Below, in pieces: positions 4,352 through 53,996 of a stretch of DNA of 64,000 nucleotides. Position 1 is the stretch's first letter; every line of letters begins with the position of its first letter. The notes under the pieces were generated by a model that saw only the letters and a list, made by a program, of their open reading frames with translations, was not told the DNA's origin and did no database searches. The translations under genes were made by a program, and so were the position numbers. Source of the stretch: Sinorhizobium sp. BG8 (GTDB lineage Bacteria; Pseudomonadota; Alphaproteobacteria; Rhizobiales; Rhizobiaceae); NCBI RefSeq assembly GCF_016864555.1, contig NZ_CP044011.1, forward strand, positions 2,623,501 to 2,687,500. The letters are read 5' to 3'.

Positions 4352-4490
4352 AGTGTGCCCGCGCATGAAATACGTTCACGGATCAGCACCGGTGCCGCCA
4401 CCCCTTACAGAAGCGGGCTTGGAGTTGTCGCAGGTATAGTGGAGGAGTTGGCAGCTTTTGGCGGCCAGAACCGGATATCATTTCCGGTTC

Positions 4491-4502
4491 AAACCTAGGT
4501 TT
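4491..4502. repeat. perfect 12-bp palindrome between convergent genes
   Basis: AAACCTAGGTTT lies between the cupin and the convergent LysR gene. It resembles the 16-bp palindromes at 52016 and 53387 (13 of 16 positions when extended to 4489-4504), but its position between two gene ends argues against a promoter role. Confidence 0.3.
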
Positions 4503-4558
4503 TCGTGGCGAGTAGGCCATGATCCCGACCACCCTCTGCCAATGTCCGCAGTCGTCGC

Positions 4559-32627: not shown

Positions 32628-35438
32628 ATGATGTCCGTATGGTCTCAACGTCCTCTGTTATCGCACCTCGGGCTGTTTTTTGCAGCGTATGTCCTGGGCT
32701 GTGCATTCGCTGACGCGCTTGCAATCGTTCCTGGAATAACGGTTTCCATCTGGCCGCCGGCGGGGGTATTCGTCGCGACCTTGATCCTCACCTCGCCCCA
32801 CACCTGGCCGTGGTGGGTGCTGTCCGGCTGTTTTGCCGAGATGTTCGCGCAACTCATATGGTTCCACAGCCCATTGATTGTGGGTCTCCTCATTTACGCT
32901 GGCAACGCACTCTGTGCCGCGACCGGCGCGACGCTCGTGAAGCTGGCCTGCAGCCGACCGCTGCGGATGGAAACCTTGCGGGAGGTTCTCGCATTCGTTG
33001 GACTTGGTGCGGGCGTTGCACCACTCGCCAGCGCGACGGTGGGAAGTGCCGCTCTTGCCTGGTTTGGTGTCGAAGGCCAAACGTTCACGGAAGTATGGCC
33101 GCTATTCTGGATAGGAGACGCCACCGGCATCCTGCTCGTGGGGCCATTGTCGTTGATGGTGATCCAGCACTGGCCCAGCAGGACCAAGCTCTCTGCGGCA
33201 AAGCGGATGGAGGCCGGCCTTCTGGGGCTGGTCTTCTTCGCTGTTGCCGCGCTTTCCTTGAGCACAGACTATCTGGCTTCCGCCTATATCATCATGCCGC
33301 CGCTTCTCTGGGCGGCCGTGCGCTTCGAGTTCAAGGGCGTGGCCGTCGCCCTGACTCTCCTCGCCCTGATCACGATGGCGCTCACCATCTCCGGCGGCAG
33401 CCACTTTGTGGGAGATCCCGAGACCCAGCGGGAAAAGCAGGTCATGTTGCAGCTCTTTCTGGCGATATCGGCCTTTTCGTCCCTCATTGTGGCCGCCCTA
33501 TCCCGGCAGAACCAGCAGGCATTGCTTTCCTTGGGCGAGCGGGAGCGGGAACTCTCACAACTGGTGGACATGGTCCCGGTCCACATCAGGCGCATGACGG
33601 CCGAAGGGGAGCCGATCTTTTTCAACAAGCGCCTGCTGGACTTTTTCGGCCTGGATAACCTGAACGATCTGGACAAGCAGGGGACGAGCCGGCTCGCCAC
33701 AACCATCCATACGCTTGTTCACCCCGACGACGCAGGCGGATTGCTTGCGACCGCCCGCCATTCCTTTGCAACCGGCGAGCCCTTCGCCTTGAAATACCGC
33801 ATGCTCCGCGCAGATGGCGTGTACCGATGGGTCGATGGCCGTGGGGAGCCGCTCAGGGATCAAGGCGGCGCGATTGTGCAATGGTACGTCATATCCATCG
33901 ACATCGATGACGAGATGCGTGCGCAGGAAGCGCTGCGGCGCAGCGAGCGCCAGCTTCAGCAGATGATCGACGCCGTGCCGACGCTCATCTGGTGCATGAC
34001 ACCAGAAGGAATACCCTGCTATCTCAACAAGCGAGCGCTGGACGTCACAGGCCTCACCCTCAAGGACATGGTTTCTCCCGACGGAGCTCGTTTGCTGGCC
34101 GTCATTCATCCAGATGAGCGTGAAGCCGTGGAACGGGTATTCGCGCAAGCAGTCGCGACGGGAACGCCGATTGTCACACGGTATCGCCAGCACCGGGCCA
34201 GCGGACCTCATCGCTGGGTTGAAAGCCGCGCCGAGCCATTGCGCGACGATACTGGCGCAATCATCCAATGGTACGGGGTGAGCGTCGACATTGACGACCT
34301 GGTGAACGCGCAGGATGCGCTGCGCAACCGGGAGCGGGAACTCTCACAGCTTGTCGATATGGTTCCCAGCCTGCTCTGGCGTCTGTCGCCAAATGGCGAA
34401 CCGACCTTCTTCAGCAAGCGGCTGATCGAGTTCTGCGGCCAGGACGTCGGTGACTTCGACAAGTCGGGCACTGATCGGCTGGCGGCAGCGATGGCGACCT
34501 TGTTCCATCCGGACGACATCGTCCGGCTGGAGGAGACGCTCAAACGCTCCCTTGTAACAGGCGAGGGCTTTGCCCTCAACTATCGCATGCGCCGGGTGGA
34601 CGGCGTCTATCGTTGGATGTTCGGCCGCGCCGAGCCTCTCAGGGATGATGGCGGACGCATCGTCCAGTGGTTCGGCCTCTCGCACGACATCGATGACCAG
34701 GTCCGTGTCGAGGAAGAACTGCATCTGGCGCGAGAGAGCCTTACAAGGGCAAGCCAGGCCGCGAGCCTTGCCGAGTTGTCCGCCGCCATTGCTCACGAGG
34801 TGAACCAACCTCTGGCAGCGATCGTCGCCAACTCCAGCGCATGCCAGGGCTGGCTCGCGGCGACGCCTCCCAATCTTGAGCGGGCCCAGAAAACGGTGGA
34901 ACGCATTATCGACAATGCGAATTCCGCAAGCGACGTCGTGAGCCACATCCGTGCCCTGTTCAAGCCCTCTGTGGAGACGAGGACAAGCACGACGATAGAG
35001 AGTGTCATCGGCGGTGCGCGCAACCTCATGGCTGAGGAGGCAGCACGGCGACGCATCCGCATGAAGATTGAAGTGGAAAGCAATCTTCCGGCGATCTCGC
35101 TCGATCGCGTCCAGGTTCAGCAGGTTCTCGTCAATCTCATTCGCAATGGCATGGATGCAATGGACTCGGTCGCCGATGACAGGGTCCTGGGAGTGCGCGC
35201 GCACCGCCCGGGGGATGCCATCCAAATCGATGTCAGTGATCGTGGCGGAGGGGTCGAATCTTCGGAGAAGATCTTCGAGCCGTTCTTCACCACAAAGGAT
35301 CGTGGCATGGGGATGGGGCTCGCAATCTGCCGGTCGATCGTCGAGTCTCATGGCGGTCGGTTGTGGGTTGAGAACAATGAGCTGCAGGGGGCAACGTTCA
35401 TATTCACGCTGCCTATCGAAGCAGACACGGGTTCCTGA
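32628..35438 (+). CDS. hybrid-free sensor histidine kinase: MASE1 - three PAS - HisKA - HATPase
   Basis: A 936-aa kinase. Residues about 10-290 are a MASE1 multi-helix membrane sensor (VSIWPPAGVFVATLIL, FWIGDATGILLVGPL). Three PAS/PAC units follow (about 305-430, 435-560, 565-690), two of them starting with nearly the same SQLVDMVP sequence, so they arose by duplication. The phospho-acceptor is His723 in AIAHEVNQPLAAIVAN, and the ATPase has N-box NLIRNGMDAM and G-boxes DRGGGV and MGMGLAI. It belongs to the rhizobial FixL/TodS-like kinases that pair with FixJ-type regulators. No response regulator is adjacent; the three at 51-53 kb are candidates. Confidence 0.93.
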   Translation: MMSVWSQRPLLSHLGLFFAAYVLGCAFADALAIVPGITVSIWPPAGVFVATLILTSPHTWPWWVLSGCFAEMFAQLIWFHSPLIVGLLIYAGNALCAATGATLVKLACSRPLRMETLREVLAFVGLGAGVAPLASATVGSAALAWFGVEGQTFTEVWPLFWIGDATGILLVGPLSLMVIQHWPSRTKLSAAKRMEAGLLGLVFFAVAALSLSTDYLASAYIIMPPLLWAAVRFEFKGVAVALTLLALITMALTISGGSHFVGDPETQREKQVMLQLFLAISAFSSLIVAALSRQNQQALLSLGERERELSQLVDMVPVHIRRMTAEGEPIFFNKRLLDFFGLDNLNDLDKQGTSRLATTIHTLVHPDDAGGLLATARHSFATGEPFALKYRMLRADGVYRWVDGRGEPLRDQGGAIVQWYVISIDIDDEMRAQEALRRSERQLQQMIDAVPTLIWCMTPEGIPCYLNKRALDVTGLTLKDMVSPDGARLLAVIHPDEREAVERVFAQAVATGTPIVTRYRQHRASGPHRWVESRAEPLRDDTGAIIQWYGVSVDIDDLVNAQDALRNRERELSQLVDMVPSLLWRLSPNGEPTFFSKRLIEFCGQDVGDFDKSGTDRLAAAMATLFHPDDIVRLEETLKRSLVTGEGFALNYRMRRVDGVYRWMFGRAEPLRDDGGRIVQWFGLSHDIDDQVRVEEELHLARESLTRASQAASLAELSAAIAHEVNQPLAAIVANSSACQGWLAATPPNLERAQKTVERIIDNANSASDVVSHIRALFKPSVETRTSTTIESVIGGARNLMAEEAARRRIRMKIEVESNLPAISLDRVQVQQVLVNLIRNGMDAMDSVADDRVLGVRAHRPGDAIQIDVSDRGGGVESSEKIFEPFFTTKDRGMGMGLAICRSIVESHGGRLWVENNELQGATFIFTLPIEADTGS

Positions 35439-35742: not shown

Positions 35743-36714
35743 TCAGTAGTCCCAGAACACCGGCACCCAACGGAAGGCATCGCCCTCGACGGCCACTCGG
35801 CCGACGGACGGGAACGGCAGATGGGTGGCAATCAACAGATCGCCGCTTGCCGCCAGGTCCCGCAGAAGACGGATACGAACGCGGGCTGCCTCCTCGGGGT
35901 CATGTTCGAAACCGTTGTGCCAGTCGGGTTGGTCAAACCCGACCGCGAACACGGCGTCGCCGGCGAATGTCAGCCCGTCTCCACCGGACGACACGTGGAC
36001 CACGCTGTGGCCCGGGGTGTGGCCGCCAGTGCGTCGAACGACTACTCCTGGCGCCACTTCCTGCTCTTCCGCGAACAAACGCAGATGGCTGCGGTATTCA
36101 TTCGTGAAGCGCTTGGCCGCGGAGCGAAGCGCGTCGGGGAACCCCGGCGGCATGGCGGTGCGAGAGAAATCAGGCGACTCCCAGAATTTGACCTCGGCGG
36201 CCGCCACGTGGATCCGCAAGTCGGGATGGATTCGGTCCTTCACCCCGTCGACGAGCAGCCCGCCGATGTGGTCCATATGCAGGTGGGTGAGCACCACGTC
36301 GGTGACGGACCCGAGATCGATGCCGGCAGCATTGAGTCGCCGAACCAGCTGCCCGGCACGTGGTAAGTTCAAGTCCGGGTCCAGTCCCAGGCCGGCGTCC
36401 AGGAGTATTGTCTGCTCGCCGCTGCGAACCACCACTGCGTTCAGCGGCCAGTCGAAGGCGTCCGGCGGCAGGAACATATTGTCCAGCCATGCTGCGCGCA
36501 CGGCCGGCTCGGCATTGTGTGCCAACATCTCGGTGGGGAGCGGGAGCACTCCATCACTGATCACCAGCACGTCAATCTCGCCCACCCGTAGCGCGTAGCG
36601 CGACGGAACGAGTTCGTCGCGGCCCGGTTTGCCTGAGCGTGGCATGCTCTGCGAGCTGATGTCTGCTTCGTGCTGACCGATCGGCCGCGACTTCCTCAAT
36701 TCTGCCTGTGACAT
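35743..36714 (-). CDS. MBL-fold metallo-hydrolase
   Basis: A 323-aa metallo-beta-lactamase-fold protein. The zinc motif THLHMDHIGG has His144, His146, Asp148 and His149; GGHTPGHSVVHVS, TFAGDAVFAVG and IATHLPFPSVG supply the remaining ligands. A non-conserved N-terminal 35-residue extension lacks a clear signal peptide. Relatives include lactonases and aryl-hydrolases that cleave N-acyl homoserine lactones or phosphotriesters, but the class cannot be told from sequence alone. The frame is open to 37089; ATG 36714 was chosen because GAGAGCAAC lies just upstream and the remaining upstream part is not conserved-looking. It is divergent from a small membrane protein gene. Confidence 0.85.
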   Translation of the reverse strand: MSQAELRKSRPIGQHEADISSQSMPRSGKPGRDELVPSRYALRVGEIDVLVISDGVLPLPTEMLAHNAEPAVRAAWLDNMFLPPDAFDWPLNAVVVRSGEQTILLDAGLGLDPDLNLPRAGQLVRRLNAAGIDLGSVTDVVLTHLHMDHIGGLLVDGVKDRIHPDLRIHVAAAEVKFWESPDFSRTAMPPGFPDALRSAAKRFTNEYRSHLRLFAEEQEVAPGVVVRRTGGHTPGHSVVHVSSGGDGLTFAGDAVFAVGFDQPDWHNGFEHDPEEAARVRIRLLRDLAASGDLLIATHLPFPSVGRVAVEGDAFRWVPVFWDY

Positions 36715-36997
36715 GTTGCTCTCCTGTTTCGCGTAGTAGAGACGTGTGGTCACGAGCCACGGCAGGACTCTAGGGTGAAGCCCGTCTGCGTTGAAGGTAA
36801 ACGGTCGTTGGGCTTGATTCCCGTTTTTGGGCTGCTCTGAGAGATTGCCTTCTGCGTGAACTGCAGAAGCGTCGCTCACTTCGGTGGCACGGCCAGGCGG
36901 CGCGCAACGGCTCCGATGGTTGGCCCGCAAGGAGAAAAGCGGGCTGCGAGGAGTGGCGCAGTCCGACGAACCGCCAACCTGCTCCCGGTATTCCCCT

Positions 36998-37013
36998 AAA
37001 CCTTCGTTTGGGA
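36998..37013. promoter_or_regulatory. weak relative of the 16-bp palindrome
   Basis: CTAAACCTTCGTTTGG has the AAAC-N4-GTTT layout of the palindromes at 52016 and 53387 (11 of 16 matches). It lies 57 bp before the ATG of the membrane protein gene in the 355-bp divergent region, which otherwise shows no gene. Confidence 0.25.
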
Positions 37014-37069
37014 AGCAACCGCCCATCCACGATGATAGTTTCCGGCAGCAATGTTTGAAGGAGGTCGAA

Positions 37070-37510: not shown

Positions 37511-37719
37511 ATGTCGAGTGCCGTGATCGGCGGTAGACGGATCACTGCCGTCTGGCCCAGCACCTGCGCTCGTCTTCGCCGCAAGAGGTAAACTCCCGTA
37601 TAGCTTCCGCGTTTGCGGCAAGTCTGTACGCTTTCCGATCTTCATCGAAATTTGTTTGCGGGGGTGAGCTTTTGTCCGTGCGAGGCGGCGGCTGCGCATA
37701 TGTGCACGAAAGGCGCAAG

Positions 37720-37908: not shown

Positions 37909-38204
37909 GGCGCGGAGAAATCATGCGCAATGCATTGGTAGGGATGCTCACGATGAGGATCCATTTGTGCCTGCGGCCCGCGCCTTCCTCTTTTAACCTT
38001 CGTATAGCTGTCCTGCGATCCGGGAAAAATCCAAAACAGATACGCGTCCTCTGCCCATGACGGTTTCTTCGAGCAGAAGCGACACTCGCTGATGTCCGCC
38101 CTGGGGCGGCCACTCACCAGGCGAGATGCGAATTACCTGTGGTTGCGACGTAAGGCGCGCTCGGGCTCAACGATGCTCGCGAGCGATGGCCGTTGGAGAT
38201 CGTG

Positions 38205-42382: not shown

Positions 42383-42817
42383 TCAGTCCGAGTTCCTGCG
42401 TCCACGAAGGCGTTCGGCGAAGTTCGCGTCCAGATGGCCTCCACCGATCGGCAGGAGGTTTTCGAGACCTTCGCGGAGCTCGTTTACGTCAACAGAGCCT
42501 TTGTCGTCAGGATCGAGCTTCGCCCAGTGCGCGTTGCTGTGCGCGCTGTCGAACGTCTGATCATTCATTTCGGCCAGCCGCCTCTGGCCGTCCATGTACT
42601 CGGCCTTCGTCACGTTGCCGTCCCTGTTTGCATCGGACCAGTTGAGCTGCTGCTCAGCCATCCTTGCGTAGAAGTCGTCGACGCGCAGAGCGTCAGAGCG
42701 AACCGAGGGGGTCTTCGCCGGCGATGACGAGGCGACGCCAGGTCCTTCCTCGGCGATCGACGGAGCTTTTCGTGTCCGCGATGCGATCATGCTGAACATG
42801 GAACTTTCGATCTTCAT
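42383..42817 (-). CDS. EF-hand domain protein
   Basis: A 144-aa protein with two EF-hand loops: residues 62-73 (DANRDGNVTKAE, canonical with Gly at position 6 and Glu at 12) and 102-113 (DPDDKGSVDVNE, also well formed). The N-terminal 45 residues are Ser/Ala/Pro-rich without a clear signal peptide. GAGGAGG lies five bases upstream of the ATG at 42817. It probably binds calcium and acts as a buffer or sensor. It is divergent from the ABC exporter operon, sharing a 320-bp region that contains the palindrome at 42937. Confidence 0.88.
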   Translation of the reverse strand: MKIESSMFSMIASRTRKAPSIAEEGPGVASSSPAKTPSVRSDALRVDDFYARMAEQQLNWSDANRDGNVTKAEYMDGQRRLAEMNDQTFDSAHSNAHWAKLDPDDKGSVDVNELREGLENLLPIGGGHLDANFAERLRGRRNSD

Positions 42818-42936
42818 AAGACCTCCTCGGCTTGCGGTGATGAAGCCGTCTGGTTGCAACACAGAGTTTTGTCGCTCCGGGGATTCGCTCCCTTGTCGAC
42901 AACCGATCCGTGTTCTTCGCCACTGATCGCGTCAAC

Positions 42937-42952
42937 GCATACCAACGTTGGC
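42937..42952. promoter_or_regulatory. 16-bp palindromic motif, copy 1
   Basis: GCATACCAACGTTGGC contains the perfect palindrome CCAACGTTGG. It matches 13 of 16 positions of the motif G(T/C)AAAC(C/T)AAGGTTT(A/G)C. The flanks also agree with the 53387 copy: CGCGTCAA before and CTAGC(A/G)A-type sequence after. It sits in the divergent region between the EF-hand gene and the ABC exporter operon. Confidence 0.5.
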
Positions 42953-43137
42953 CTAGCAACGCGCGCCCGTTCGGTTGCTTAGTGGGCTTTGGGCCTTGTG
43001 ACGCGAAGGCCGGGAAAAGTCGCGTTGCGCGACGGAGAAAAGCGGGTTCTCGACCTGAGTGCGGCGGAGAGCCGGATTGCCCCCAGCGATAAGCGCCTCC
43101 CTTCTTGCCGCAGCGGGGTCCCGCACAGGAGACGAAA

Positions 43138-44148
43138 ATGAACAAGGCAATACCGATCGTGATCGCGTTGGCCGCCCTCGGCGCTGCCGGTTGGAAATAC
43201 GACGTGCTCGCGAGCCTCGGCATTGCGCGTGGCGTTGACCAGGACATGGTCCTCTACGGCAACATCGACATACGTCAGGTCTCCCTCGCGTTCCGCGTGA
43301 ACGGCCGCATCATGGAAGCGATGGTTGACGAAGGCGACGTGATCAAACGAGGAGACCTTCTGGCCCGGCTCGACAAGGATACGTACGAGCACGCCGTGAT
43401 TTCAGGGGAGGCGGATGTCGCCGCGCTTCGCGCGACACACGAGAAACTGGTCGCAGGCCCACGGCAGACCGAGATAGCGCAGGCCAGGGCCACGCACGAC
43501 GCCAGCATCGCCGACCTTGAGAAGGCCCGCCTTGCCTATGACCGGGCGCAACTGCTGCGGTCCCGAGGAACGATCTCCGAGGCCGGCGTCGATGAAGCGA
43601 CCGCGGCAAGGGCGATGGCCGTGGCACGCTCGAATATGACCAAGGAAGCGCTCGCCTTTCTGGTGGAGGGCAGCCGATCGGAAGACATAGCCACCGCTGC
43701 CGCGCAGATGAAAGCGGCGGAGGCGGCGCTCCTTACGGCGCGCACCTCTCTGTCCGATACGGAACTGCGTGCGCCGAATGACGGCGTTATCCTGTCCCGG
43801 ATCAAGGAGCCCGGCGCAATCGTATCGTCCTCCGATCCTGTATATGTCCTGTCGCTCACGGCTCCTGTGTGGGTGCGCAGCTATATCGGCGAGGCCGATC
43901 TCGGACGGATTTACCCGGGAATGAAGGTCAAGGTCGCGTCCGATACGCATCCCGGAAAGAGCTACGAAGGAACGATCGGCTTCATTTCACCGGTTGCGGA
44001 ATTCACGCCCAAATCCGTCGAAACTCCCGAGCTTCGCACCGATCTCGTCTATCGGATTCGTGTCGTCATCGGCGCTCCCGGCCAGGATCTCCGCCAGGGA
44101 ATGCCGGTGACCTTGCGCTTGCAGGAAACAGAGGCGGCAGGGAAATGA
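43138..44148 (+). CDS. HlyD/YbhG-type periplasmic adaptor of an ABC exporter
   Basis: A 336-aa membrane fusion protein with an N-terminal membrane anchor ([17 protein letters not shown]) and the YbhG order of parts: [19 protein letters not shown], a long coiled-coil hairpin (about residues 75-190), then [27 protein letters not shown] and [20 protein letters not shown] lies just before the ATG. Its last codons overlap the ATPase start by 4 bp (ATGA at 44145), so the four exporter genes form one translationally linked operon equivalent to E. coli ybhGFSR. Confidence 0.92.
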
Positions 44149-45887
44149 ATCTCGCAGCCGAACATGCAGCTACTGCCGACTTCGTCCGACTGGACGATGT
44201 GACCAAACGCTTCGGTCCGGGAAAGCCGGCGCTGGACCAGGTCTCGGGCGTCATCCGTGGCGGCGAGATAACAGGACTTGTGGGGCCCGACGGTGCCGGA
44301 AAGACGACGCTGATCCGCCTGATGACCGGGCTGATGTTTCCGGATGGCGGCAACGTCGATGTCCTTGGCTTCAGGACGCGCGAGCGGTCGGCCGACATCC
44401 AGGCGTCCATCGGCTACATGCCGCAGCGCTTCGGCCTCTACGAGGATCTGTCTGTGGAGGAAAATCTCGAGCTCTATGCGGACCTGCGGGGACTTCCGAA
44501 GCCCGACCGGGCGCGCATCTTCGACGAGTTGCTCACGTTCACCGACCTGAAGCGCTTTTCTGCCCGCCTTTCCGGAAAGCTGTCCGGTGGAATGAAGCAG
44601 AAGCTTGGTCTTGCCTGCGCGTTGTTGAAGAAGCCGCGATTGCTGCTTCTCGACGAACCCGGCGTTGGCGTCGATCCTATCTCCCGGCGCGATCTCTGGA
44701 AGATGGTCGAGGTCCTGATCAAGGAGGGCGTCGGCGTCGTCTGGTCGACCGCCTATCTCGACGAGGCCGAAGCCTGTGATCGCGTTCTCCTGCTGAACGA
44801 GGGGAAGCTGCTGTTCTCGGGCAGGCCGCAGGAATTGACCGACCGGGTGAAGGAACGGGTCTACCGGGTGACTGGTGTATCCGGTCGAAGGCGCTCGACG
44901 TTGGCGAAGCTTCTCGATGAAGACGGCATCGTTGACGGCGGAATCCAGGGGGAGGCGATAAGGCTGGTGACAACGCCCGGCCGTGAGGCCCGGTTTGCGG
45001 CGAGCGGCGAAGCGAACGTCAGTGCCACCGATCCGCGCTTCGAAGATGCCTTCGTGGATATGCTGGGCGGAGGGCCGGGCGGTCGCTCGAGGCTCGCAGA
45101 GGCCCAGGCCTCTCTGGCTGCCAGACAGGAAGGCCCGGTCATCGAAGCGAGAGGGCTGGTCAAGCGTTTCGGCGATTTCACCGCTGCCGACAAAATCACC
45201 TTCGACATTCCGGGTGGCGAGATATTCGGGCTCCTTGGACCAAACGGCGCCGGCAAATCGACGACGTTCAAGATGCTGTGCGGCCTGTTGAAACCGACTG
45301 AAGGCGAGGGGCGCGTGGCGGGCTTCGATCTCCGCCGTGATGCAGCCGAGGCGCGCAACCGGCTGGGTTACATGGCGCAGAAGTTTTCGCTCTACGGCGA
45401 CCTGAGCGTTCAGCAGAACCTTCAGTTCTTCGCTGGGGTCTATGGCCTCACCGGTAGCAAGAAGCGTGAGCGGATCGAGCTGATGACGTCGATCTTCGAT
45501 TTCGGGCCGCGCCTGTCGATGTCGGCAAAAGACCTTCCGCTGGGCCTGAAACAACGGCTGGCGCTCGCCTGTGCGGTGATGCACGAGCCGCAAGCCCTGT
45601 TCCTCGACGAGCCCACCTCGGGCGTCGATCCGATTACGAGGCGCGAGTTCTGGACGCATATCAACGGTCTGGTGGAGAAGGGCGTGACCGTACTGGTCAC
45701 AACGCATTTCATGGACGAGGCCGAGTACTGCGATCGCATCTCGTTGATCTATCGCGGCCGATCGATCGCGCTCGGCTCTCCGGATGAGCTCAAGGCCAGC
45801 GTCGCCACCGAGGAAACCCCCGATCCGACGATGGAAGACGCCTTCATCGCGCTCGTGCAAGGCTCGGACTTGGAGAGTGCCCGATGA
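44145..45887 (+). CDS. ABC transporter ATP-binding protein with two nucleotide-binding domains (YbhF-like)
   Basis: A 580-aa double ATPase. The first domain has a variant Walker [14 protein letters not shown] and signature [12 protein letters not shown], Walker [13 protein letters not shown]; the second has [13 protein letters not shown], signature [15 protein letters not shown] and [11 protein letters not shown]. The signature of the second domain (PLGLKQ) departs from LSGGQ, as in YbhF homologues. It powers the two permeases encoded directly downstream and overlaps both neighbours by 4 bp. Confidence 0.93.
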
Positions 45888-47029
45888 CGGATTCCGCAAA
45901 CAGCTCGCATGATGGCGGCCGCACGGTTCGATTTCTCGCGCTTGTACGCAAGGAAAGCCTTCAGGTTGCCCGCGATCCGAGCAGTATCCTGATCGCCTTC
46001 GTGCTGCCGCTGATCCTCCTCTTCCTTTTCGGATACGGCATTTCCCTGGACACGAAGGAGACGCGCGTCGGTGTCGTTATCGAGGATGTGACGCCCGTTA
46101 CGAGCGATCTCGCTGCCAGCTTTCAGGCCTCGCGCTATTTCTCGGTCTCGACGGGGCGTGACCGTCGTGAATTCGAGGAGGACCTGGTGCTGGCGCGTAT
46201 TCGCGGCATCATCGTCATTCCCTCGGATTTCATGGACAGATACACCGCCGGAAACCACCCCCAGGTCCAGGTGATCGTCGACGGGTCCGATCCCAACACG
46301 GCGAACTTTGTCCAGAGCTATGTCCAGGGTGCGGTGGCGACGTGGCAACAGCTCCGGCAGTCGGAGACGGCGGCAATGGGGGAGCCGATCTGGGTGGAAC
46401 AGCGCTTCTGGTTCAACCCTGAGCTAACGAGCCGTTCCTTTCTCGTTCCCGGGTCGATCGCGATCATCATGACGCTTGTCGGGACACTGCTGACGTCGCT
46501 GGTCGTTGCCCGCGAGTGGGAGCGCGGCACGATGGAGGCAATCATGGCGACTCCTGTGACGGCAATCGAGCTCCTCGCTGGGAAGGTTCTTCCCTATTTC
46601 GTTCTCGCGCTGGCATCGATGACGCTCTGCGTGCTGCTCGCCGTCTTCATGTTCGGCGTCCCGTTCCGGGGTTCCATTGGAGCACTTTACTTGCTTTCCG
46701 CGGTCTTTCTGGTTCCGGCGCTCGGGCAGGGGCTGTTGATTTCGGCGGCCACCAAGAACCAGTTCCTGGCCTCGCAGATGGCGCTGATCACGGCCTTTCT
46801 CCCGTCCTTTCTGCTGTCCGGATTCCTGTTCGAGATCAATTCGATGCCCCAGTTCATCCAGTGGATCACCTTCGTGGTGCCCACGCGGTATCTGATCCCA
46901 TGCCTTCAGAGCGTCTTCCTCGCCGGAGATATTTGGCCGATGTTCCTTCGCTCCATCGGCGCTATGTCACTGATCGGTCTCGTCTTTCTCATGTTCGCCG
47001 CCCGCAGCACGCGCAAAAGGATTGCCTGA
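45884..47029 (+). CDS. ABC-2 type permease (YbhS-like)
   Basis: A 381-aa permease with the ABC-2 layout: an N-terminal helix (ILIAFVLPLILLFLFGYG), a large extracytoplasmic loop (about 50-180, with VIVDGSDPNTANFVQSYV), then five helices including GSIAIIMTLVGTLLTSLVVAREWERGTMEAI. It forms a heterodimeric channel with the next gene product. The ATGA overlap at 45884 couples it to the ATPase. Substrate unknown; YbhFSR-type pumps export organic cations and some antibiotics. Confidence 0.92.
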   Translation: MTDSANSSHDGGRTVRFLALVRKESLQVARDPSSILIAFVLPLILLFLFGYGISLDTKETRVGVVIEDVTPVTSDLAASFQASRYFSVSTGRDRREFEEDLVLARIRGIIVIPSDFMDRYTAGNHPQVQVIVDGSDPNTANFVQSYVQGAVATWQQLRQSETAAMGEPIWVEQRFWFNPELTSRSFLVPGSIAIIMTLVGTLLTSLVVAREWERGTMEAIMATPVTAIELLAGKVLPYFVLALASMTLCVLLAVFMFGVPFRGSIGALYLLSAVFLVPALGQGLLISAATKNQFLASQMALITAFLPSFLLSGFLFEINSMPQFIQWITFVVPTRYLIPCLQSVFLAGDIWPMFLRSIGAMSLIGLVFLMFAARSTRKRIA

Positions 47030-47030
47030 G

Positions 47031-48143
47031 ATGTGGTGGTCGCGATTGTTGGCCCTTGTGCTGAAAGAACTGCTGACGGTACTTCGTGATCCGAAGGGCC
47101 GGACAATCCTGATCGGTCCGCCGATCGTGCAGCTTGTGGTGTTCTCGTATGCGGCAACGCTCGAAGTCCGCAACGTCGACGTCATGCTGCTCAATAGGGA
47201 TGCGGGCCATTGGGGCGAGGAACTCGTCGCACGCATCGACGGTTCGCCTCGGTTCAGGCATGTCACCCTCACGGACAGTCCGCAGGAGGCGCGGGCAGCG
47301 ATCGACCGCCAGCAGGTGACCGCCGCGATAACGATCGGCGCGGACTTCTCCCGCAGCATCGAAGCAGGCAAGCCTGCGGATCTGCAGATCCTGCTGGATG
47401 GACGGCGATCAAACGCAGCTCAGATCGTTTCCGGCTACATCTCCCAGATCGTAAGGGCGTTGGGTGCCGAGACGCCCGCGGGCAGGCTCAAGGTGGCGAC
47501 AGCGATAGAAGTCGTGCCGCGCTACTGGTTCAATCCCAACCTCATCTATCAATGGTTCATGGTGCCGAACCTGATCGCGAACATCGCGCTTCTGATCGGA
47601 TTGATCGTTACCGCGCTGTCCATCGCTCGCGAGCGCGAACTCGGGACTTTCGATCAGTTGATGGTATCGCCGCTCCGCACGCATGAGATCGTGATCGGCA
47701 AGCTCACTCCGCCGATGCTCATCGGACTGTTCCATATGACCGTCTATGTGCTTGCCGCGGTCTTCGTCTTCGCGGTTCCCTTGCGTGGGTCTCTCGTCCT
47801 GCTTTATGCGAGCTCGCTCTTCTATCTCGCCTCGATTGCCGGGGTAGGGCTATTCATCTCGGCGCTGTCGATGACGCAGCAGCAGGCAATCCTTGGCGCA
47901 TTTCTCTTTCTTGTCCCGGCGACGCTTCTGTCCGGGTTCGCGACGCCGATAGAGAACATGCCGTCCTGGCTGCAGCCGATAACCGCGGTCAATCCGCTAC
48001 GGTACTTTCTCGTCGTCGTGAAAGGCATCTTCCTCAAGGACATTCCCGTGTCCGAGGTCTTGAGACAGACGATACCGCTGCTGGTCATCGCAATCGTCAC
48101 GCTGTCGGCGGCGTCGTGGCTTTTTCGACGTCGCCTCGAGTGA
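47031..48143 (+). CDS. ABC-2 type permease (YbhR-like)
   Basis: A 370-aa ABC-2 permease similar in plan to the preceding one: KELLTVLRDPKGRTILIGPPIVQLVVFSYAATLEVRNV at the start, the RYWFNPNLIYQWFMVPNLIANIALLIG segment before the helical bundle, and IARERELGTFDQLMVSP. ATG 47031 follows the previous stop by one base (TTG 47022 would overlap). Its own stop overlaps an ATG at 48143 (TGATG), hinting that the histidine kinase is part of the same operon. Confidence 0.92.
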   Translation: MWWSRLLALVLKELLTVLRDPKGRTILIGPPIVQLVVFSYAATLEVRNVDVMLLNRDAGHWGEELVARIDGSPRFRHVTLTDSPQEARAAIDRQQVTAAITIGADFSRSIEAGKPADLQILLDGRRSNAAQIVSGYISQIVRALGAETPAGRLKVATAIEVVPRYWFNPNLIYQWFMVPNLIANIALLIGLIVTALSIARERELGTFDQLMVSPLRTHEIVIGKLTPPMLIGLFHMTVYVLAAVFVFAVPLRGSLVLLYASSLFYLASIAGVGLFISALSMTQQQAILGAFLFLVPATLLSGFATPIENMPSWLQPITAVNPLRYFLVVVKGIFLKDIPVSEVLRQTIPLLVIAIVTLSAASWLFRRRLE

Positions 48144-49549
48144 TGCCAACCCTCATCGCGGCGATCGATCGGACAGGCGCCGACACCCAGCCTCGATGCC
48201 GTCTTGAAGATATGAGTTTGAGAACCACCATGAAGAGCTCTCATCGCCGGAACCGCCAGTCTCCCACGCCAGACTTCGAAAGTGGTGCCGGTGCCACGGT
48301 CGATCCCCGGGTGTACCGGGATCTGAAGGCGAGCGAAGCACGCTATCGCAATCTCATCGACAACGTGCCGCTGCCACTCTGGCAGGTCGATGCCAGAAGC
48401 ATGACGAAGCTTCTCGATGAGCCGGGACTTTTCGCTGGTAACTACGGGGACGTCCGCGGGCGCAGTTTGGAATTTCTGGAGCTTGCCAACGATACGGTGG
48501 TCGTGACCGGCGTGAATGAAAGCGCCGTCGAACTGCTGCGCGCTTCAGGAAGCGAGGACCTTCTCGGTCCCGTCGGGTACCTGTTCGCCGCCAGTCCGGA
48601 CACCGCCGTGCGCATCGTGGAGGCCCGCTTTGCTCAGCGGCGCAACCACGTCGAGGAAATGAAGGTCCGCGCATTCGACGGCCAGCTTCTCGATGTCCTG
48701 CTCTTCGCGACATTTCCCCAGACGCCCGACTGCGCCGATCTCGCCCTGATCATGATGGTCGACGTGACGGCGCAGCGGAGAACCGAACAGCAACTACGAA
48801 AAGTACAGTCGGACCTTGTCCATGCGTCGCGCGTCTCGGCCCTCGGCGAGCTTGTGGCCACCATTGCGCACGAGGTGCGGCAGCCTCTCTCGGTGATCGC
48901 GACCGACGCGGACACAGCGACGCGATGGCTGGACCGGGCGGAGCCAAACCTGCCCAAGGCGAGAGAACTCATGACACGGGTTGCGGAAAATGCCCACCGT
49001 GCCAGCAGAGTGATTGGCCGCATCCAGGACATGACCGCCAAGCGCGATCCGGCGCGAACGCCGGTCGATATCAATGCGATCGTCGAAGAGACGACCGCAT
49101 TCGTATCCACGGAAGCCCGCCTCCATGCGATCGTCGTTTCGCAGCGGCTGCAGGAGGGGCTCCCTGCTGTCATGGGTGACCGCGTCCAGCTTCAGCAGGT
49201 CGTCGTGAACCTGTTGCTGAACAGCATACAGGCCATTGCAGGCTCCGGCCCGGAAAGGCGCGAAATCACCGTCGAAACATCATACGGCGGGCGCGGCGCG
49301 ATCTCGCTCACCGTGCACGATACGGGTGGGGGCATCCCGCCAGAACACCTGGACCGGATCTTCGACGGTTTCTTCTCGACGAAGACGGATGGCATCGGGA
49401 TCGGCCTGGCCATATGTCGATCCATCGTGGGGGAGCATGAAGGAACCGTCCGTGTCGACAATGCGGAGGGCGAGGGAGCCCGCTTTGTCGTGACACTCCC
49501 CATCTCGCCCGGACATGCGATCGGCAGGGAAAGGCAAACCTTCGTTTGA
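48143..49549 (+). CDS. PAS-containing sensor histidine kinase
   Basis: A 468-aa soluble kinase if started at ATG 48143. A PAS-like sensor (ARYRNLIDNVPLPLWQVDA onward, about 65-200) precedes the dimerisation and phospho-acceptor helix with His243 (TIAHEVRQPLSVIATDAD) and an ATPase domain (NLLLNSIQAI, DTGGGIPPEH, GIGIGLAICRSIV). No membrane segment. The start is uncertain: TGATG coupling favours 48143, but ATG 48212 or 48230 would drop a non-conserved leader. Placement behind an exporter operon suggests the pump and kinase respond together. Its phosphotransfer partner is probably one of the regulators at 51308 or 52151. Confidence 0.9.
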   Translation: MPTLIAAIDRTGADTQPRCRLEDMSLRTTMKSSHRRNRQSPTPDFESGAGATVDPRVYRDLKASEARYRNLIDNVPLPLWQVDARSMTKLLDEPGLFAGNYGDVRGRSLEFLELANDTVVVTGVNESAVELLRASGSEDLLGPVGYLFAASPDTAVRIVEARFAQRRNHVEEMKVRAFDGQLLDVLLFATFPQTPDCADLALIMMVDVTAQRRTEQQLRKVQSDLVHASRVSALGELVATIAHEVRQPLSVIATDADTATRWLDRAEPNLPKARELMTRVAENAHRASRVIGRIQDMTAKRDPARTPVDINAIVEETTAFVSTEARLHAIVVSQRLQEGLPAVMGDRVQLQQVVVNLLLNSIQAIAGSGPERREITVETSYGGRGAISLTVHDTGGGIPPEHLDRIFDGFFSTKTDGIGIGLAICRSIVGEHEGTVRVDNAEGEGARFVVTLPISPGHAIGRERQTFV

Positions 49550-49710
49550 TGGTTTGGAACGCCTTTCTTGACTATCCTTCGTCCTCGCTCGGCCGCAAGA
49601 AAGCCTGCAACCGTCCGGTGGGGGTTGCCGGATCGAGGCGGCAGGGCTGCATCTTCCAACCGCCGCCATCCGGCTCAAGCACCCGAGCTCCTGCTCCCGT
49701 GAGGTTTGAC

Positions 49711-51213
49711 ATGGGTCATGACGTCCCCCTCCTGCCGCTGATTATCAGCCTGCTCGGGATCGCCGGAATTATCGCATGGCACCTGCAAGGGCGGTCGCGC
49801 CCCACCGCCCGGCTGATTGTCCAGATCGCGTTCTTCGCGGTTATGACGGCGGTGCTAAGCTTTGCCCGAGCCTCTCCCTTTCACTACGATCCGAGCGGGA
49901 TCGACGGCGCGAGCGCGTTGCTCCTTCTCGCGAAGGTCCTGTGGTGGATCCATCTGGCCTGGGCCATGATCGGCTTCGTTCGCATCTATATCGTCCTTGA
50001 CCATCGGCCGAGAGAGGCGAGGCTGATCCAGGATCTGATCGTCGCGACCGTCTATCTCGGCGTGTCGCTGTCGATCATGGCCTTCGTTTTCGGCGTTCCC
50101 GTCGGCACGCTGATGGCCACATCCGGCGTGATTGCAATCATCCTCGGCCTGGCGCTGCAGAATACTCTGAGCGATATGTTTTCCGGCATCGCCCTGACCT
50201 TGGGGCGTCCGTACGTCATCGGGGACTGGATCTCCCTGACGGACGGCACCGAAGGGAGGGTCGTGGCGAGCAACTGGCGCTCGACATATCTCTTGACCGG
50301 CGCCCATAACGTCGTGGTGCTGCCGAACAGCGTGCTCGCCAAGCTCGGGCTGACAAACGTGAGCCAGCCCGACGAGAACCATCAGCTCACGCTTCCCATC
50401 CGGGTCGCTCCAACGCGCATGCCCCGAACGATCGTGGAGGTCATGCGTGACGTGCTCGAAAGCAGCAACGTCATCGTCAAGCAACCGAGCCCGTATGTCG
50501 TCCTGACGGCCATCGACGCGAGCGCGGTCACCGTGGAACTGCAGTTCCGCGTGACCAGCCCCGCGCAGCGTGGCGAGGCTCGCAACGAGGTCATCGATCT
50601 GGTCTATCGTCACTGCAAGGCCAGCGGTCTGGAATTGGCGATGCCGCCGGAAGCCGTGGTCGTTTCGAAGGATAGCGTTCAAATGGCCGAGCACCCGACG
50701 CCGGAGGCGTTGGGGCTTGTCGAGGCCGTTTCGACGTTTGCCATCCTTAACAGGGATGAGCGCATCTCTCTCGCGGCCCTGGCAACACAACGGACGTTCT
50801 CAGCCGGGGCGGAAATCGTTCGCGCCGGCGATGTCCTGACACGTCTCATGATCGTCAGGTCGGGTATCGTCGCCATGAAGACGAACAATGAGGAGGTTGC
50901 GAGATTGGCTCCGGGGGACTTTTTCGGTGAGCAGGGTCTGCTGGCCGGCTTGGAGGAAACGCACACGCTGCAGGCCGTCACGCGTGTCGTCGTCTACGAG
51001 ATCGACAAGGACGCGTTCGCGCCCTTGCTCATCGAGCGCCCAGAGCTCGCCGAAGACCTGGCAGCGAACCTGGCCTGCCGGAACCGTCTCGGCGAGAGAC
51101 GACTGACACCGACCAATACGGACGATGGCAGAACGTCGGACCTTCTGAAGAGGATACGATCGATGTTTCGACTGCACAGGAGCCATGGGGAGCCGGCCCG
51201 ATCGCGACACTGA
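49711..51213 (+). CDS. MscS-family channel with C-terminal cyclic-nucleotide-binding-like domain
   Basis: A 500-aa protein. Five hydrophobic segments lie at about 5-25, 34-52, 69-95, 107-128 and 132-152; the pore-lining helix and beta domain read ATSGVIAIILGLALQNTLSD then GRPYVIGDWISLTDGTEGRV, typical of MscS. Residues 345-450 are a cNMP-binding fold with FFGEQGLLAGLEETHTLQAVT. In that cassette the Arg that contacts the cyclic phosphate is replaced by Glu, so cAMP binding is uncertain. MscS-CNB proteins (bCNG) are nucleotide-gated rather than stretch-gated in studied cases. Start ATG 49711 has GTGAGG upstream; the frame is open to 49546. Confidence 0.9.
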   Translation: MGHDVPLLPLIISLLGIAGIIAWHLQGRSRPTARLIVQIAFFAVMTAVLSFARASPFHYDPSGIDGASALLLLAKVLWWIHLAWAMIGFVRIYIVLDHRPREARLIQDLIVATVYLGVSLSIMAFVFGVPVGTLMATSGVIAIILGLALQNTLSDMFSGIALTLGRPYVIGDWISLTDGTEGRVVASNWRSTYLLTGAHNVVVLPNSVLAKLGLTNVSQPDENHQLTLPIRVAPTRMPRTIVEVMRDVLESSNVIVKQPSPYVVLTAIDASAVTVELQFRVTSPAQRGEARNEVIDLVYRHCKASGLELAMPPEAVVVSKDSVQMAEHPTPEALGLVEAVSTFAILNRDERISLAALATQRTFSAGAEIVRAGDVLTRLMIVRSGIVAMKTNNEEVARLAPGDFFGEQGLLAGLEETHTLQAVTRVVVYEIDKDAFAPLLIERPELAEDLAANLACRNRLGERRLTPTNTDDGRTSDLLKRIRSMFRLHRSHGEPARSRH

Positions 51214-51307
51214 CTACACGCGGCGCGGGGTCATTTCCCGGCCGGCGATCGCGACCGGCGGGTGACCTCGTGGTATTGTTCCCGTCCTGCAGAACCGAGA
51301 GGGCCAC

Positions 51308-51943
51308 ATGCCTGAGGCAGCAGATCCACAGCAGTCCATCCCGACGATCCATGTCATCGACGATGATACCGACCTGCGGACGGCGCTCCTCGGTTTCTTT
51401 GAGGCCATTGGAATGCGGGCGGCAGGCTTCGAAAGCGCAGGCGCATTCCTTGAGCATGCCGATCTCTCTGAGCCCGGCTGCATTCTCCTCGACATCAGGA
51501 TGCCTGGCATGACCGGGCTCGAACTTCAGGCGAAGCTGACCGAGCTCGGATTTCCGCTGCCGATCATCTTCATGACCGGAAACGCCAGCGTGGCGACCAG
51601 CGTTTCCGCTATGAAAGCGGGAGCGCTTGACTATCTGGTCAAGCCGTTCAGCTCGGAAAGCCTGATGCAGGCGACGAAACAGGCGCTCGAACACAATGCC
51701 GAACTTCGGGCCAGGGATGCGGTGAGCCTGCAGATGAACGCCCTCGTGGAGAAACTCACCCGGCGCGAAAGGGAGGTGTTCGGATACGTCTCCAAAGGGT
51801 TGATGAACAAGCAGATCGCACATGAGATGCAGATAAGCGAGATCATGGTCAAGCTCCACCGGGGCCGGATGATGAAGAAGCTGGACGCCCGATCCATCGC
51901 CGATGTCGTGCGTATCTTCGACGAGGTCAACCGCCGCGCCTAG
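51308..51943 (+). CDS. FixJ-like response regulator (receiver + LuxR-type HTH)
   Basis: A 211-aa regulator. The receiver (residues 12-130) has the acidic pocket DDD at 18-20, phospho-acceptor Asp62 (ILLDIRMPG), Thr in IIFMTGNAS, and Lys in YLVKPF. The C-terminal LuxR/FixJ helix-turn-helix reads LTRREREVFGYVSKGLMNKQIAHEMQISEIMVKLHR. It is related to the product of 52151-52789 (same KGLMNKQ-type helix), so the two are likely duplicates. It starts 95 bp after the channel gene. Confidence 0.93.
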   Translation: MPEAADPQQSIPTIHVIDDDTDLRTALLGFFEAIGMRAAGFESAGAFLEHADLSEPGCILLDIRMPGMTGLELQAKLTELGFPLPIIFMTGNASVATSVSAMKAGALDYLVKPFSSESLMQATKQALEHNAELRARDAVSLQMNALVEKLTRREREVFGYVSKGLMNKQIAHEMQISEIMVKLHRGRMMKKLDARSIADVVRIFDEVNRRA

Positions 51944-52015
51944 AGCGCGTTGCGGGTTGCCTGGCTTCCGAACCTTTTGGCGCTGGGCCTTGCCAGGCCC
52001 GACGGCACCTGCGGA

Positions 52016-52031
52016 GTAAACCAAGGTTTAC
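52016..52031. promoter_or_regulatory. 16-bp palindromic motif, copy 2
   Basis: GTAAACCAAGGTTTAC is a palindrome with 7-bp perfect arms around AA. It lies 120 bp upstream of the second FixJ-like gene, where an activator site would be expected. Near-identical motifs occur at 53387 and 42937. Confidence 0.55.
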
Positions 52032-52150
52032 GGTCCCAGCGTCGAGGACCCGTGATAGATTTCCTCCGCGGCCGCCGCAGTCCATCCGCGAGGTTCGCCC
52101 TCCACATTCCTGGGACTGCGCAGATTGCCGGGCAACGCGGAGGATCAGCC

Positions 52151-52789
52151 ATGGAAAGCCTTGAGATGGAGACTGATCGAGTGGTGGAATCGGTTGTGTA
52201 CGTCATCGATGACGACAAGCATATGCGTGAGGCCTTGCTCGATCTTTTTCTGGTTACGCACTGGCAGGCTTCGGCCTATTCGAGCGGATCCGAGTTCCTG
52301 GCCACCGTCGATACGACGGGACCCGGCTGCATCGTGATCGACCTCCGGATGCCGGGAGAGACGGGCCTGGACGTACAGAGCCGGTTGGCCTCGACTGGAA
52401 GCCGCATGCCCGTCATCTTCCTGACCGCGCATGCGGATGTCGCAGCCAGCGTCAGAGCGATGAAGGCCGGCGCGTGCGATTTTCTTACCAAGCCGTTCGT
52501 CACGCACGACCTGCTGGCCGCCGTCGGCAATGCCATCCGGTTGGATGGCGAGAGGCGCAAACTGGAAGCCGAGCGCGACCATATCGGGGCGCTCGCAGAC
52601 ACGTTGACGCCGAGAGAGCAGCAGGTGATGTTCGGCGTGGTCAGCGGGCTGATGAACAAGCAGGTCGCCTATGAGCTCGGGATCAGCGAGATGACTGTGA
52701 AGCTGCATCGCATGAGCGTCATGCGCAAGATGCAGACACGATCGCTCGCCGACCTTGTGCGAAAAGTGGAGAAGCTCCGAAAGAACTGA
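52151..52789 (+). CDS. FixJ-like response regulator (receiver + LuxR-type HTH)
   Basis: A 212-aa regulator of the same design as its upstream neighbour: acidic DDD at 20-22, phospho-acceptor Asp64 (CIVIDLRMPGETG), FLTAHAD, KPF, and the HTH LTPREQQVMFGVVSGLMNKQVAYELGISEMTVKLHR. GGAGG at 52137-52141 and ATG 52151 fix the start although the frame is open to 51950. The 207-bp gap to the previous gene carries the palindrome at 52016, so it probably has its own promoter. Confidence 0.93.
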   Translation: MESLEMETDRVVESVVYVIDDDKHMREALLDLFLVTHWQASAYSSGSEFLATVDTTGPGCIVIDLRMPGETGLDVQSRLASTGSRMPVIFLTAHADVAASVRAMKAGACDFLTKPFVTHDLLAAVGNAIRLDGERRKLEAERDHIGALADTLTPREQQVMFGVVSGLMNKQVAYELGISEMTVKLHRMSVMRKMQTRSLADLVRKVEKLRKN

Positions 52790-52860
52790 GCATGCAGGGG
52801 TTCTGACGCCTCGACGTTGGGGCAGCCCCGCGGGGTCGGCCCCATGTCGTCGCCTGAGCT

Positions 52861-53235
52861 TCATGCGGGGTCCGTCCGGACCGCCTGCTCGATGGCTGCT
52901 CGCAACTCGCCGCCGGCAAATGGCTTGAACAGGCATGTGCCCGCCTGCTTCGCTTCGCGAACGAGTGCATCCTGGGCGTGCCCCGTCATGAACACCACAG
53001 GTATTCTGATGTCCCGGCGTTTCAGTTCCCTGTAGAGATCGACGCCGGACATTCCTGGCATCGAGATGTCCAGGAGAAGGCATCGCGTCTCCGAGATCCG
53101 TGGCGAGCTCAAAAATTCCGGTGCGGATGCAAACGTCTCGACGGCGTATCCAAACATCTCCACCAGGTCGAGCAATGATACCCGAACCGCTTCGTCGTCA
53201 TCGATTATGGCAATCAGCATCGGAAGTATTTCCAT
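52861..53235 (-). CDS. single-domain response regulator (receiver only)
   Basis: A 124-aa stand-alone receiver with DDD at 12-14, phospho-acceptor Asp56 (CLLLDISMPGMSG), VVFMTGHAQDAL and LFKPFAGGE. No output domain, so it works as a phosphate sink, a competitor of the two FixJ-like proteins or through protein contact. It converges with the second FixJ-like gene. Starts at 53235 or 53220 are both possible. The palindrome at 53387 lies about 150 bp upstream. Confidence 0.9.
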   Translation of the reverse strand: MEILPMLIAIIDDDEAVRVSLLDLVEMFGYAVETFASAPEFLSSPRISETRCLLLDISMPGMSGVDLYRELKRRDIRIPVVFMTGHAQDALVREAKQAGTCLFKPFAGGELRAAIEQAVRTDPA

Positions 53236-53386
53236 GTGAGGTCAACGATGTGCTTCTCTACCTGGTTGCACCGGCGCCCATCGGCGACTCGGTCGTGAGG
53301 CGAAAGGCTGGACTTCCGGCAGAGTTACATTTCCCCGCATGTTGAAGACAACCCAATTGTCGGTCTTTGGCAGCGCTCGCGTCAAT

Positions 53387-53402
53387 GCAAACTAAGGTTT
53401 GC
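53387..53402. promoter_or_regulatory. 16-bp palindromic motif, copy 3
   Basis: GCAAACTAAGGTTTGC has perfect 6-bp arms around TAAG and shares the AAAC-N4-GTTT frame with the 52016 copy. CGCGTCAA just before and TAGCGAC just after also match the flanks of the 42937 copy. It lies between the single-domain receiver gene (minus strand) and the secreted cupin gene (plus strand). Confidence 0.55.
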
Positions 53403-53505
53403 TAGCGACGTGGCTACTCGTTGACATCGCTTTGGACAGGCGGTTCCCAGCCGGTCGCGGCAAGGGGACGGGAAGGGGAGGCATAAGCGCGGCGCAGCCA
53501 CATAA

Positions 53506-53521
53506 CCTACGTATACCTAGG
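53506..53521. promoter_or_regulatory. imperfect palindrome with GTATAC core upstream of the cupin gene
   Basis: CCTACGTATACCTAGG is symmetric at 14 of 16 positions. It lies 65 bp before the cupin ATG at 53586. The GTATAC core is shared with the GntR-type operators elsewhere in the window; the binding protein is unknown. Confidence 0.3.
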
Positions 53522-53585: not shown

Positions 53586-53996
53586 ATGCGAATACTGGCG
53601 AATGGCTTGCTCGGTCTGACGATGCTCGCGCTTCCCGCGGTGGCGGGAGAAAAGCCCTATAATGCCAAGGTCACCCTGGTGTTCGACCACGCGCTTCCGA
53701 ATGTACCCGGCAAGAGCATGCGCGGAGTTCTGGTCGAATACGGACCGGGAGGCCACAACCCGTCGCATACCCATCCGAAGAGCGCGTTTATCAGCGCGAC
53801 GGTGATCGAAGGGAGCATCAAGAGCCAGATCAACGATGGACCGGTCAAAGTTTACAAGGTCGGCGAGAACTGGATCGAGGTACCCGGTGACCATCATCGG
53901 GTGAGCGCGAACGCCAGCGAGTCGGAGCCCGCGAAGCTGCTCGCGGTCTTTGTCGTCGACACGAACGAAACGGAACTGACGACTTTCGACGATTGA
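53586..53996 (+). CDS. exported cupin domain protein
   Basis: A 136-aa protein with a signal peptide (residues 1-20, MRILANGLLGLTMLALPAVA) and one cupin domain: GGHNPSHTHPKSAFISATVIEG is motif 1 and GENWIEVPGDHHRVSANAS motif 2, with three His and a Glu for a metal. It acts in the periplasm; role unknown. AAGGAGGAGAG precedes the ATG. A hairpin plus T-tract at 54013-54043 looks like its terminator, so it is a single-gene unit. Confidence 0.88.
   Translation: MRILANGLLGLTMLALPAVAGEKPYNAKVTLVFDHALPNVPGKSMRGVLVEYGPGGHNPSHTHPKSAFISATVIEGSIKSQINDGPVKVYKVGENWIEVPGDHHRVSANASESEPAKLLAVFVVDTNETELTTFDD

Follow-up and report, generated by a model that had tools for sequence, protein, structure and literature searches.

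A putative StyR/TodT-like operator and a probable local, autoregulated regulon around a FixJ-like response regulator gene of Sinorhizobium sp. BG8

The response regulators StyR, TodT, TutB and TmoT may recognise a common consensus, ATAAACN4GTTTAT, and residues K175, V176 and H179 are the putative contact residues of StyR (PMC5874301). The StyR site STY2 is placed at about -40 (PMC2442086). Here we describe a candidate operator of this type, box A, in a 64,000-nucleotide stretch of Sinorhizobium sp. BG8 (contig NZ_CP044011.1, positions 2,623,501 to 2,687,500; hereafter the window), where it stands in front of several genes around those of two FixJ/StyR-type response regulators, FixJ1 and FixJ2. 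The box A sites are conserved in relatives, keep a set spacing to promoter elements and are tied to the neighbourhood of fixJ2. We propose that they are probably bound, as operators, by a two-component response regulator of the StyR/TodT-like kind, with FixJ2 as the likeliest candidate, and that they define a local, autoregulated regulon. The operator type is already known; neither the regulon itself nor any study of this rhizobial FixJ-like group was found in the literature searched, outside which most subscription journals lie.

The natural unit of the motif is AAACN4GTTT, which plus a single letter at either end forms the 14-mer YAAACNNNNGTTTR (box A, YAAACCWWSGTTTR). Exact copies of YAAACNNNNGTTTR occur at six places among the matches listed for the genome, and four of these (36997, 49535, 52017 and 53388) are in the window, which makes up 1.1% of the genome (binomial probability 2e-7, for a motif first noticed in this window). 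The bare unit is present at 33 places in the 5,667,563 bases of the genome (31 for the reversed control), five of them in the 64-kb window (3e-5), and with at most one mismatch the 14-mer is found at seven window places (2e-4). A preliminary description of this DNA had started from three 16-mers, at 52016, 53387 and 42937, presented as near-identical palindromes. Their coordinates are exact and all three do lie between genes, but they are not equally palindromic: 14, 12 and 8 of the 16 positions, respectively, are self-complementary, and the set comprises two palindromes and one partial palindrome. The flanks said to be common to 53387 and 42937, CGCGTCAA and TAGC, are present at both sites, with one base separating CGCGTCAA from the 16-mer in each case; at 42937, one more base stands in front of TAGC. 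Fitting a single 16-mer to all three sites gives, with at most two mismatches, five matches at four places in the window against 0.52 expected. The site at 36998, set down as a weaker relative, precedes the membrane-protein gene as stated but is not weak; with 0 mismatches and the standard -10 spacing, it is among the best sites. The mismatch-free copy at 49535 had been overlooked.

Conservation was assessed in 22 stretches (449,611 bases), namely the window and 21 rhizobial loci with FixJ2 orthologues of 61-92% identity. These 21 are the counted part of 79 FixJ2-like loci; four more (L044, L045, L046 and L082) were looked at, and 54 distant loci stand outside the box counts. Near-duplicate pairs are L027/L042, L031/L032 and L035/L036. 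Box A with at most one mismatch is present within 360 bp upstream of fixJ2 in 21 of the 22 copies (61-100% identity, window included), and L043 has it with two mismatches. Over 64 half-sites scored upstream of fixJ2 the mean is 0.9, compared to 21 for box A; the next best half-site, ATAC, reaches 9, and its matches may partly be the same sites. Across the 22 stretches, AAACN4GTTT occurs 57 times, against a median of 2 over the 64 half-sites and 21 for the next.

For other genes, boxes were counted in the 330 bp upstream, allowing one mismatch, in rows with the upstream region in view and with the window included. Two loci, L208 and L206, overlap L025 and L026, so that the rows for the EF-hand gene, HlyD43138 and ABC44145 count one copy twice (11, 5 and 5 distinct copies). 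The gene of the small membrane protein at 37070 has a box in 13/13 copies, 58-63 bp away; together with the fixJ2 count, this bears out the expectation that the motif is conserved upstream of orthologous genes. Boxes also precede the receiver gene (8/11 rows; identity is only 36-39% in three of the 11), the MscS/cNMP channel gene (7/10), NmrA-like genes (18/34), the EF-hand gene (4/12), the MASE1/PAS kinase gene (3/23), the cupin gene (3/16 copies), HlyD43138 (1/6 rows), HlyD38193 (1/8) and the cyclase gene (1/14). Among more distant fixJ2-like rows (<61% identity) the count is 8/14, and among fixJ1-like rows it is 4/26. No box was found upstream of kinase 48206 in the five rows with the upstream region in view, one of which is only 30% identical. 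The operon-internal genes, which serve as negative controls, are likewise without a box (MFS 0/9; the three ABC genes 0/6, with five distinct copies, 0/5 and 0/5). The earlier proposal that one regulator controls exporter, calcium-binding and signalling genes is partly supported; the calcium-binding EF-hand gene is a weak target, and the site at the exporter is degenerate.

The boxes keep a set distance from an extended -10 element (TGnTA). In a spacing scan in which each palindromic box is counted once per direction, TGnTA starts 23 nt after the box in 30 cases, 22 nt in 12 and 21 nt in three, and every other distance has one to four cases where it has any. At 21-23 nt, the element accompanies 45 of the 288 box-orientations, whereas seven other half-sites give 0-2 each. 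The window boxes with an extended -10 at this spacing are 52017 and 36997. Box A would thereby occupy the -35 position, and its centre would lie at about -44 if TAGATT (52056-52061) is the -10 hexamer. Two one-mismatch window boxes, CAAACCTAGGTTTT at 4490-4503, far from the block, and TAAACTCCCGTATA at 37589-37602, downstream of the membrane-protein gene, are without an extended -10 at the standard spacing. The same holds for six one-mismatch boxes elsewhere among the genomic matches listed (2527118, 2530325, 2547323, 2580251, 2589846 and 2602381), which were considered as further targets and taken as chance; one of them is inside an rpsG-like gene and one before an EF-Tu-like gene (by eye).

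A sequence model (R1) was built from 21 promoters of relatives, without the window sequence, and 150 of the 797 first-look candidates in the genome were scored with it. At E≤10, R1 reported a pair of sites genome-wide, each inside the window: 52017 with 30.6 bits, the best match found in the genome, and 36997 with 26.5 bits. Among 151 family genomes (39 candidates scored per genome), matches at E≤0.01 occur in five, which are the same five that have a FixJ2 of at least 66% identity. This is a weak test because only G000 and G054 are independent of the training set; training loci L026 and L034 come from G144 and G099, and L042, a near duplicate of training locus L027, comes from G127.

At the receiver gene, the box at 53388 read on the minus strand is followed by TTGACG (53385-53380), conserved in L024-L026, and by GACAAT (53361-53356), and the flank CGCGTCAA would correspond to the complementary strand of a -35 element in a leftward promoter. 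The preliminary description had assigned this site to either the receiver or the cupin gene. Its distance to the receiver start is steady, at 149-152 bp in the window and L024-L026, whereas the distance to the cupin gene is variable and the cupin of L026 is elsewhere, which rules out the cupin as target and leaves the receiver. At the MscS/cNMP gene, the listed TTG start, which takes in the stretch 49546-49707, is probably wrong, and the ATG at 49708 is likelier, which would place the promoter region over the kinase stop codon.

Box A is tied to the fixJ2 neighbourhood. In the 151 family genomes, all three MscS homologues within about 7 kb of fixJ2 (beside fixJ1/fixJ2) have a box, compared to 0/13 of the other MscS copies in the sample. 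Of these 13, the G054 copy shares a contig with fixJ2 at a distance of about 29 kb; the remaining ones sit on different contigs or belong to genomes that lack a close FixJ2, and some are additional copies in genomes that do have FixJ2. Linkage does not guarantee a box, since in the islands of the relatives the MscS count is 7/10. Away from these loci, 0/26 StyR/FixJ-like genes of the family are boxed upstream (identities of 42-69%; for one gene the view is limited to 134 bases), and box A was accordingly rejected as a general mark of StyR-like genes in this family. Membrane protein 37070 is encoded in four of the 151 genomes, and all four are among the five with a FixJ2 of at least 66% identity. 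By contrast with the near-constant box at fixJ2, only 9 of the 22 loci carrying fixJ2 have a FixJ1 orthologue (at least 58% identity) in view. The regulator had been sought among the FixJ-like proteins from 51308 or 52151; the core idea of one such regulator is supported by the conservation, and the data favour the second of them, FixJ2.

The exporter site is of a different quality. In the interval between the EF-hand gene and HlyD, 28 bp around 42937 are invariant in the window, L024, L025 and L026, which is the longest such run, followed by runs of 16 bp (GTTCGGTTGCTTAGTG) and, further on, 13 bp. Of 297 family genomes, five contain a 22-mer from this site with at most three mismatches, exactly so in four cases, and the reversed control gives nine matches. 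In view of this control, the match in the fifth genome, G127 (three mismatches, GTAAACCAACGTTGG, with a one-mismatch box, TAAACCAACGTTGG), counts only because it precedes the HlyD orthologue. We assign 42937, with lower confidence, as a possible degenerate member of the box A operator type; it is an invariant relative of the other sites rather than the near-identical palindrome that had been described.

The features of the window are collected in Table 1. The box in front of the MBL-fold gene has counterparts 81-82 bp upstream of the MBL genes of L208 and L206. Membrane protein 37070 has no Pfam or NCBIfam match. As regards a kinase partner, which for the StyR/TodT group is a multi-domain hybrid kinase of the TodS/StyS type, both window kinases that were scanned have HisKA and HATPase_c domains, and one also has MASE1 and PAS domains; DNA repeats at 33532-34722, inside the MASE1 kinase gene, are probably tandem PAS_3 domains.

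Table 1. Coordinates of genes, predicted operator sites and promoter elements in the window
Feature	Position	Strand	Remarks
MBL-fold hydrolase	35743..36717	-	Distantly AidB lactonase-like, below NCBIfam cut-off; box upstream in 7/14 copies
One-mismatch box A (CCAACGACCGTTTA on -)	36798..36811	-	80 bp upstream of MBL-fold gene; weak candidate
Box A TAAACCTTCGTTTG	36997..37010	+	0 mismatches; predicted promoter of gene 37070
Extended -10 TGATAGTTT	37033-37041		TG 23 nt after box 36997
Small membrane protein (by eye), 146 aa	37070..37510	+	
Box B, second copy, 1 mismatch	37995..38010	+	Upstream of HlyD38193/MFS exporter genes; weakly conserved
EF-hand-like protein	42383..42838	-	Matches below Pfam cut-off
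Possible degenerate box A with flanks GCGTCAACGCATACCAACGTTGGCCTAG	42929..42956		Between EF-hand gene and HlyD/ABC-2 exporter operon
HlyD adaptor, two-domain ABC ATPase, two ABC-2 permeases	43138..48143	+	
Histidine kinase (HisKA, HATPase_c)	48206..49549	+	
Box A CAAACCTTCGTTTG	49535..49548	+	Upstream of MscS/cNMP gene; overlaps kinase stop codon
MscS-type channel with cNMP-binding domain	49708..51213	+	Likely start 49708
FixJ1, FixJ/StyR-type response regulator	51308..51943	+	
Box A TAAACCAAGGTTTA	52017..52030	+	Predicted promoter of fixJ2
Extended -10 TGATAGATT	52053-52061		In front of fixJ2
FixJ2, proposed box A regulator	52151..52789	+	
Single-domain receiver	52861..53235	-	
Box A of receiver gene	53388..53401	-	0 mismatches
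Box B AACCTACGTATACCTA	53504..53519	+	First base 82 bp upstream of cupin start
Cupin (secreted by eye)	53586..53996	+	

A second motif, box B, which is related to box A, was noticed as an invariant 15-mer in the window, L024 and L025, and again near the cupin gene in L026-L029, L040, L041 and L042. Its pattern, AACCTWCGTATANCTA, was generalised from those cupin-upstream sequences, so that its count of 10/16 cupin copies with at most two mismatches upstream (mean 0.002 and maximum 1 for 500 shuffled patterns) is not independent of them. With at most one mismatch, box B has two matches in the genome, both in the window (53504 and 37995; one for the reversed control), and HlyD38193 has the 37995 copy in L208 as well, whereas L203 and L206 lack it. 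Box B is present at the cupin gene in 9/9 loci with a FixJ1 orthologue of at least 58% identity in view and in 1/7 other loci, an association that is a lead and not proof because the loci are closely related. Tentatively, the two paralogous FixJ-like regulators might split a DNA code, box A belonging to FixJ2 and box B (AACCTWCGTATANCTA) perhaps to FixJ1, and so divide the island genes between them, with genes gaining a box on joining the island; the last point is suggested by the MscS copies, which are boxed in the island and not elsewhere in the 151-genome sample. In L030, L031, L034, L037, L038, L043 and L047, sites such as CCAACCTACGTTTA, CCAACCTAGGTTTG and ACCTACGTTTATCTA have the look of box A/box B hybrids and are mostly upstream of NmrA-like genes.

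FixJ1 and FixJ2 both match PF00072 and PF00196 above the cut-offs and are NarL/FixJ-type response regulators with a receiver and a GerE helix-turn-helix domain. Their scores against NCBIfam NF006900 (FixJ proper), 190.4 for FixJ2 and 171.8 for FixJ1, fall below the curated cut-off of 255. Among solved structures, FixJ2 is best matched by 1yio ('response regulatory protein', E 1.5e-50), which we take to be StyR, the residue numbering being consistent. The recognition stretch EMTVKLHRM is identical in the window and in 21/21 FixJ2 orthologues; over ten residues, FixJ1 reads SEIMVKLHRG and FixJ2 SEMTVKLHRM. A paralogue with 69% identity to FixJ2 is encoded about 87 kb from it (C1:2588409-2589014, minus strand, L104), and no box is present within 360 bp upstream of its gene.

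From these sequence comparisons, we infer that FixJ2, phosphorylated by a kinase in response to a signal, binds box A and acts as an activator. As expected for the StyR/TodT group, a phosphorylated FixJ2 dimer would bind across the -35 region or immediately upstream of it and would recruit RNA polymerase to the extended -10 promoters of fixJ2 and the membrane-protein gene, or to the TTGACG -35 promoter of the receiver gene. FixJ2 would activate its own gene, those of the membrane protein and the receiver, and that of the MscS/cNMP channel with fixJ1, and may act on the HlyD/ABC-2 exporter through the degenerate box.

Several points weigh against this proposal. With at most one mismatch, YAAACNNNNGTTTR shows no enrichment genome-wide (104 matches compared to 179 for the control), and a scan of 61 family genomes with YAAACYWWSGTTTR gave 36 matches in 13 genomes, compared to 80 for the reversed pattern. 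The -10 spacing at 49535 is off by 1-2 bp (by eye), and box A is absent upstream of 3/10 MscS and 3/11 receiver rows. Because the loci were picked through fixJ2, the adjacency of fixJ2 and box is partly selection, and the loci are also related. At the positions of the StyR contacts K175, V176 and H179, FixJ2 has K, L and M, and FixJ1 keeps K, followed by L and G. The recognition stretch of the 69% paralogue, EMTVKIHRM, differs from that of FixJ2 by one residue, and this protein might be a second binder of box A. FixJ1 and other FixJ-like proteins also have much of the helix in common. Boxes further occur at other island genes of the FixJ-like kind (8/14 fixJ2-like rows under 61% and 4/26 fixJ1-like rows), which, with the paralogue's near-identical stretch, slightly weakens both the assignment of box A to FixJ2 and the idea of a split code. 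The fitted 16-mer was discarded as a genome-wide motif since, with at most two mismatches, it has 24 matches compared to 49 for its reversed pattern. The preliminary description had named such chance density over the whole genome as an outcome that would speak against its regulon, and this is what was found for the loose motif; the regulon can therefore only be local.

The alternative that survives best, although improbable, is that box A is read by FixJ1, by the 69% paralogue or by several FixJ-like proteins jointly, through shared or competing sites. It would account for the likeness of the recognition stretches, similar in FixJ1 and almost identical in the paralogue, for the position of fixJ1 behind box 49535 and for the boxes found at additional FixJ-like island genes. 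However, it sits poorly with the 9/22 fixJ2 loci in which a FixJ1 orthologue is in view, with L030, which has no second FixJ-like match within its 20 kb, and with the company that box B keeps with FixJ1 loci (9/9). Much less probable still is an unrelated regulator, such as a TetR-type repressor, with the FixJ genes merely co-located. Inverted repeats of the size of box A are common for TetR-type repressors. Yet, although no other regulator shared by the loci was systematically sought, the boxes stand just upstream of the -10/-35 elements, as for an activator, and the MscS copies away from fixJ2 have no box; moreover, box A matches the StyR-type operator as given in PMC5874301. A chance likeness of AT-rich promoter sequences without any regulon, which the three loose-motif counts would fit, deserves hardly any credence, as it is already contradicted by 21/22 and 13/13 boxes at fixed positions, where other half-sites score close to zero, and by 4/6 exact copies, among the matches listed, in 1.1% of the genome.

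If FixJ2 is the regulator of box A, then rhizobial FixJ-like proteins would gain a compact and testable regulon of five promoters and one candidate regulator, and an operator code of Pseudomonas catabolism would extend to membrane and signalling genes. The related operator pair beside a paralogous regulator pair would also be a natural case for how response regulators may divide their targets between them after duplication.

Compared to known systems, FixJ2 resembles FixJ of the rhizobial FixL/FixJ system in its receiver and GerE (LuxR-type) domains, and FixJ is its best NCBIfam match, although below the cut-off. In contrast, solved FixJ has TIEVYR where FixJ2 has TVKLHR, and no nitrogen-fixation gene is among the proposed target genes. 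With STY2 of Pseudomonas (StyS/StyR) and the TodT, TmoT and TutB boxes, box A shares the core AAACN4GTTT, the T/A on both sides in several sites and a position near the promoter; as at STY2 of StyR, the site is just upstream of the core promoter. FixJ2 may thus work like StyR, and we make no claim that it belongs to the aromatic-catabolism group. Unlike that group, which serves aromatic-hydrocarbon catabolism such as the breakdown of styrene and toluene in Pseudomonas, FixJ2 has its candidate targets in the genes for the membrane protein, channel, receiver and exporter and in its own gene. Moreover, FixJ2 keeps only the lysine of the three named StyR contacts, and the extended -10 at a fixed spacing before fixJ2 and the membrane-protein gene is a further point of difference.

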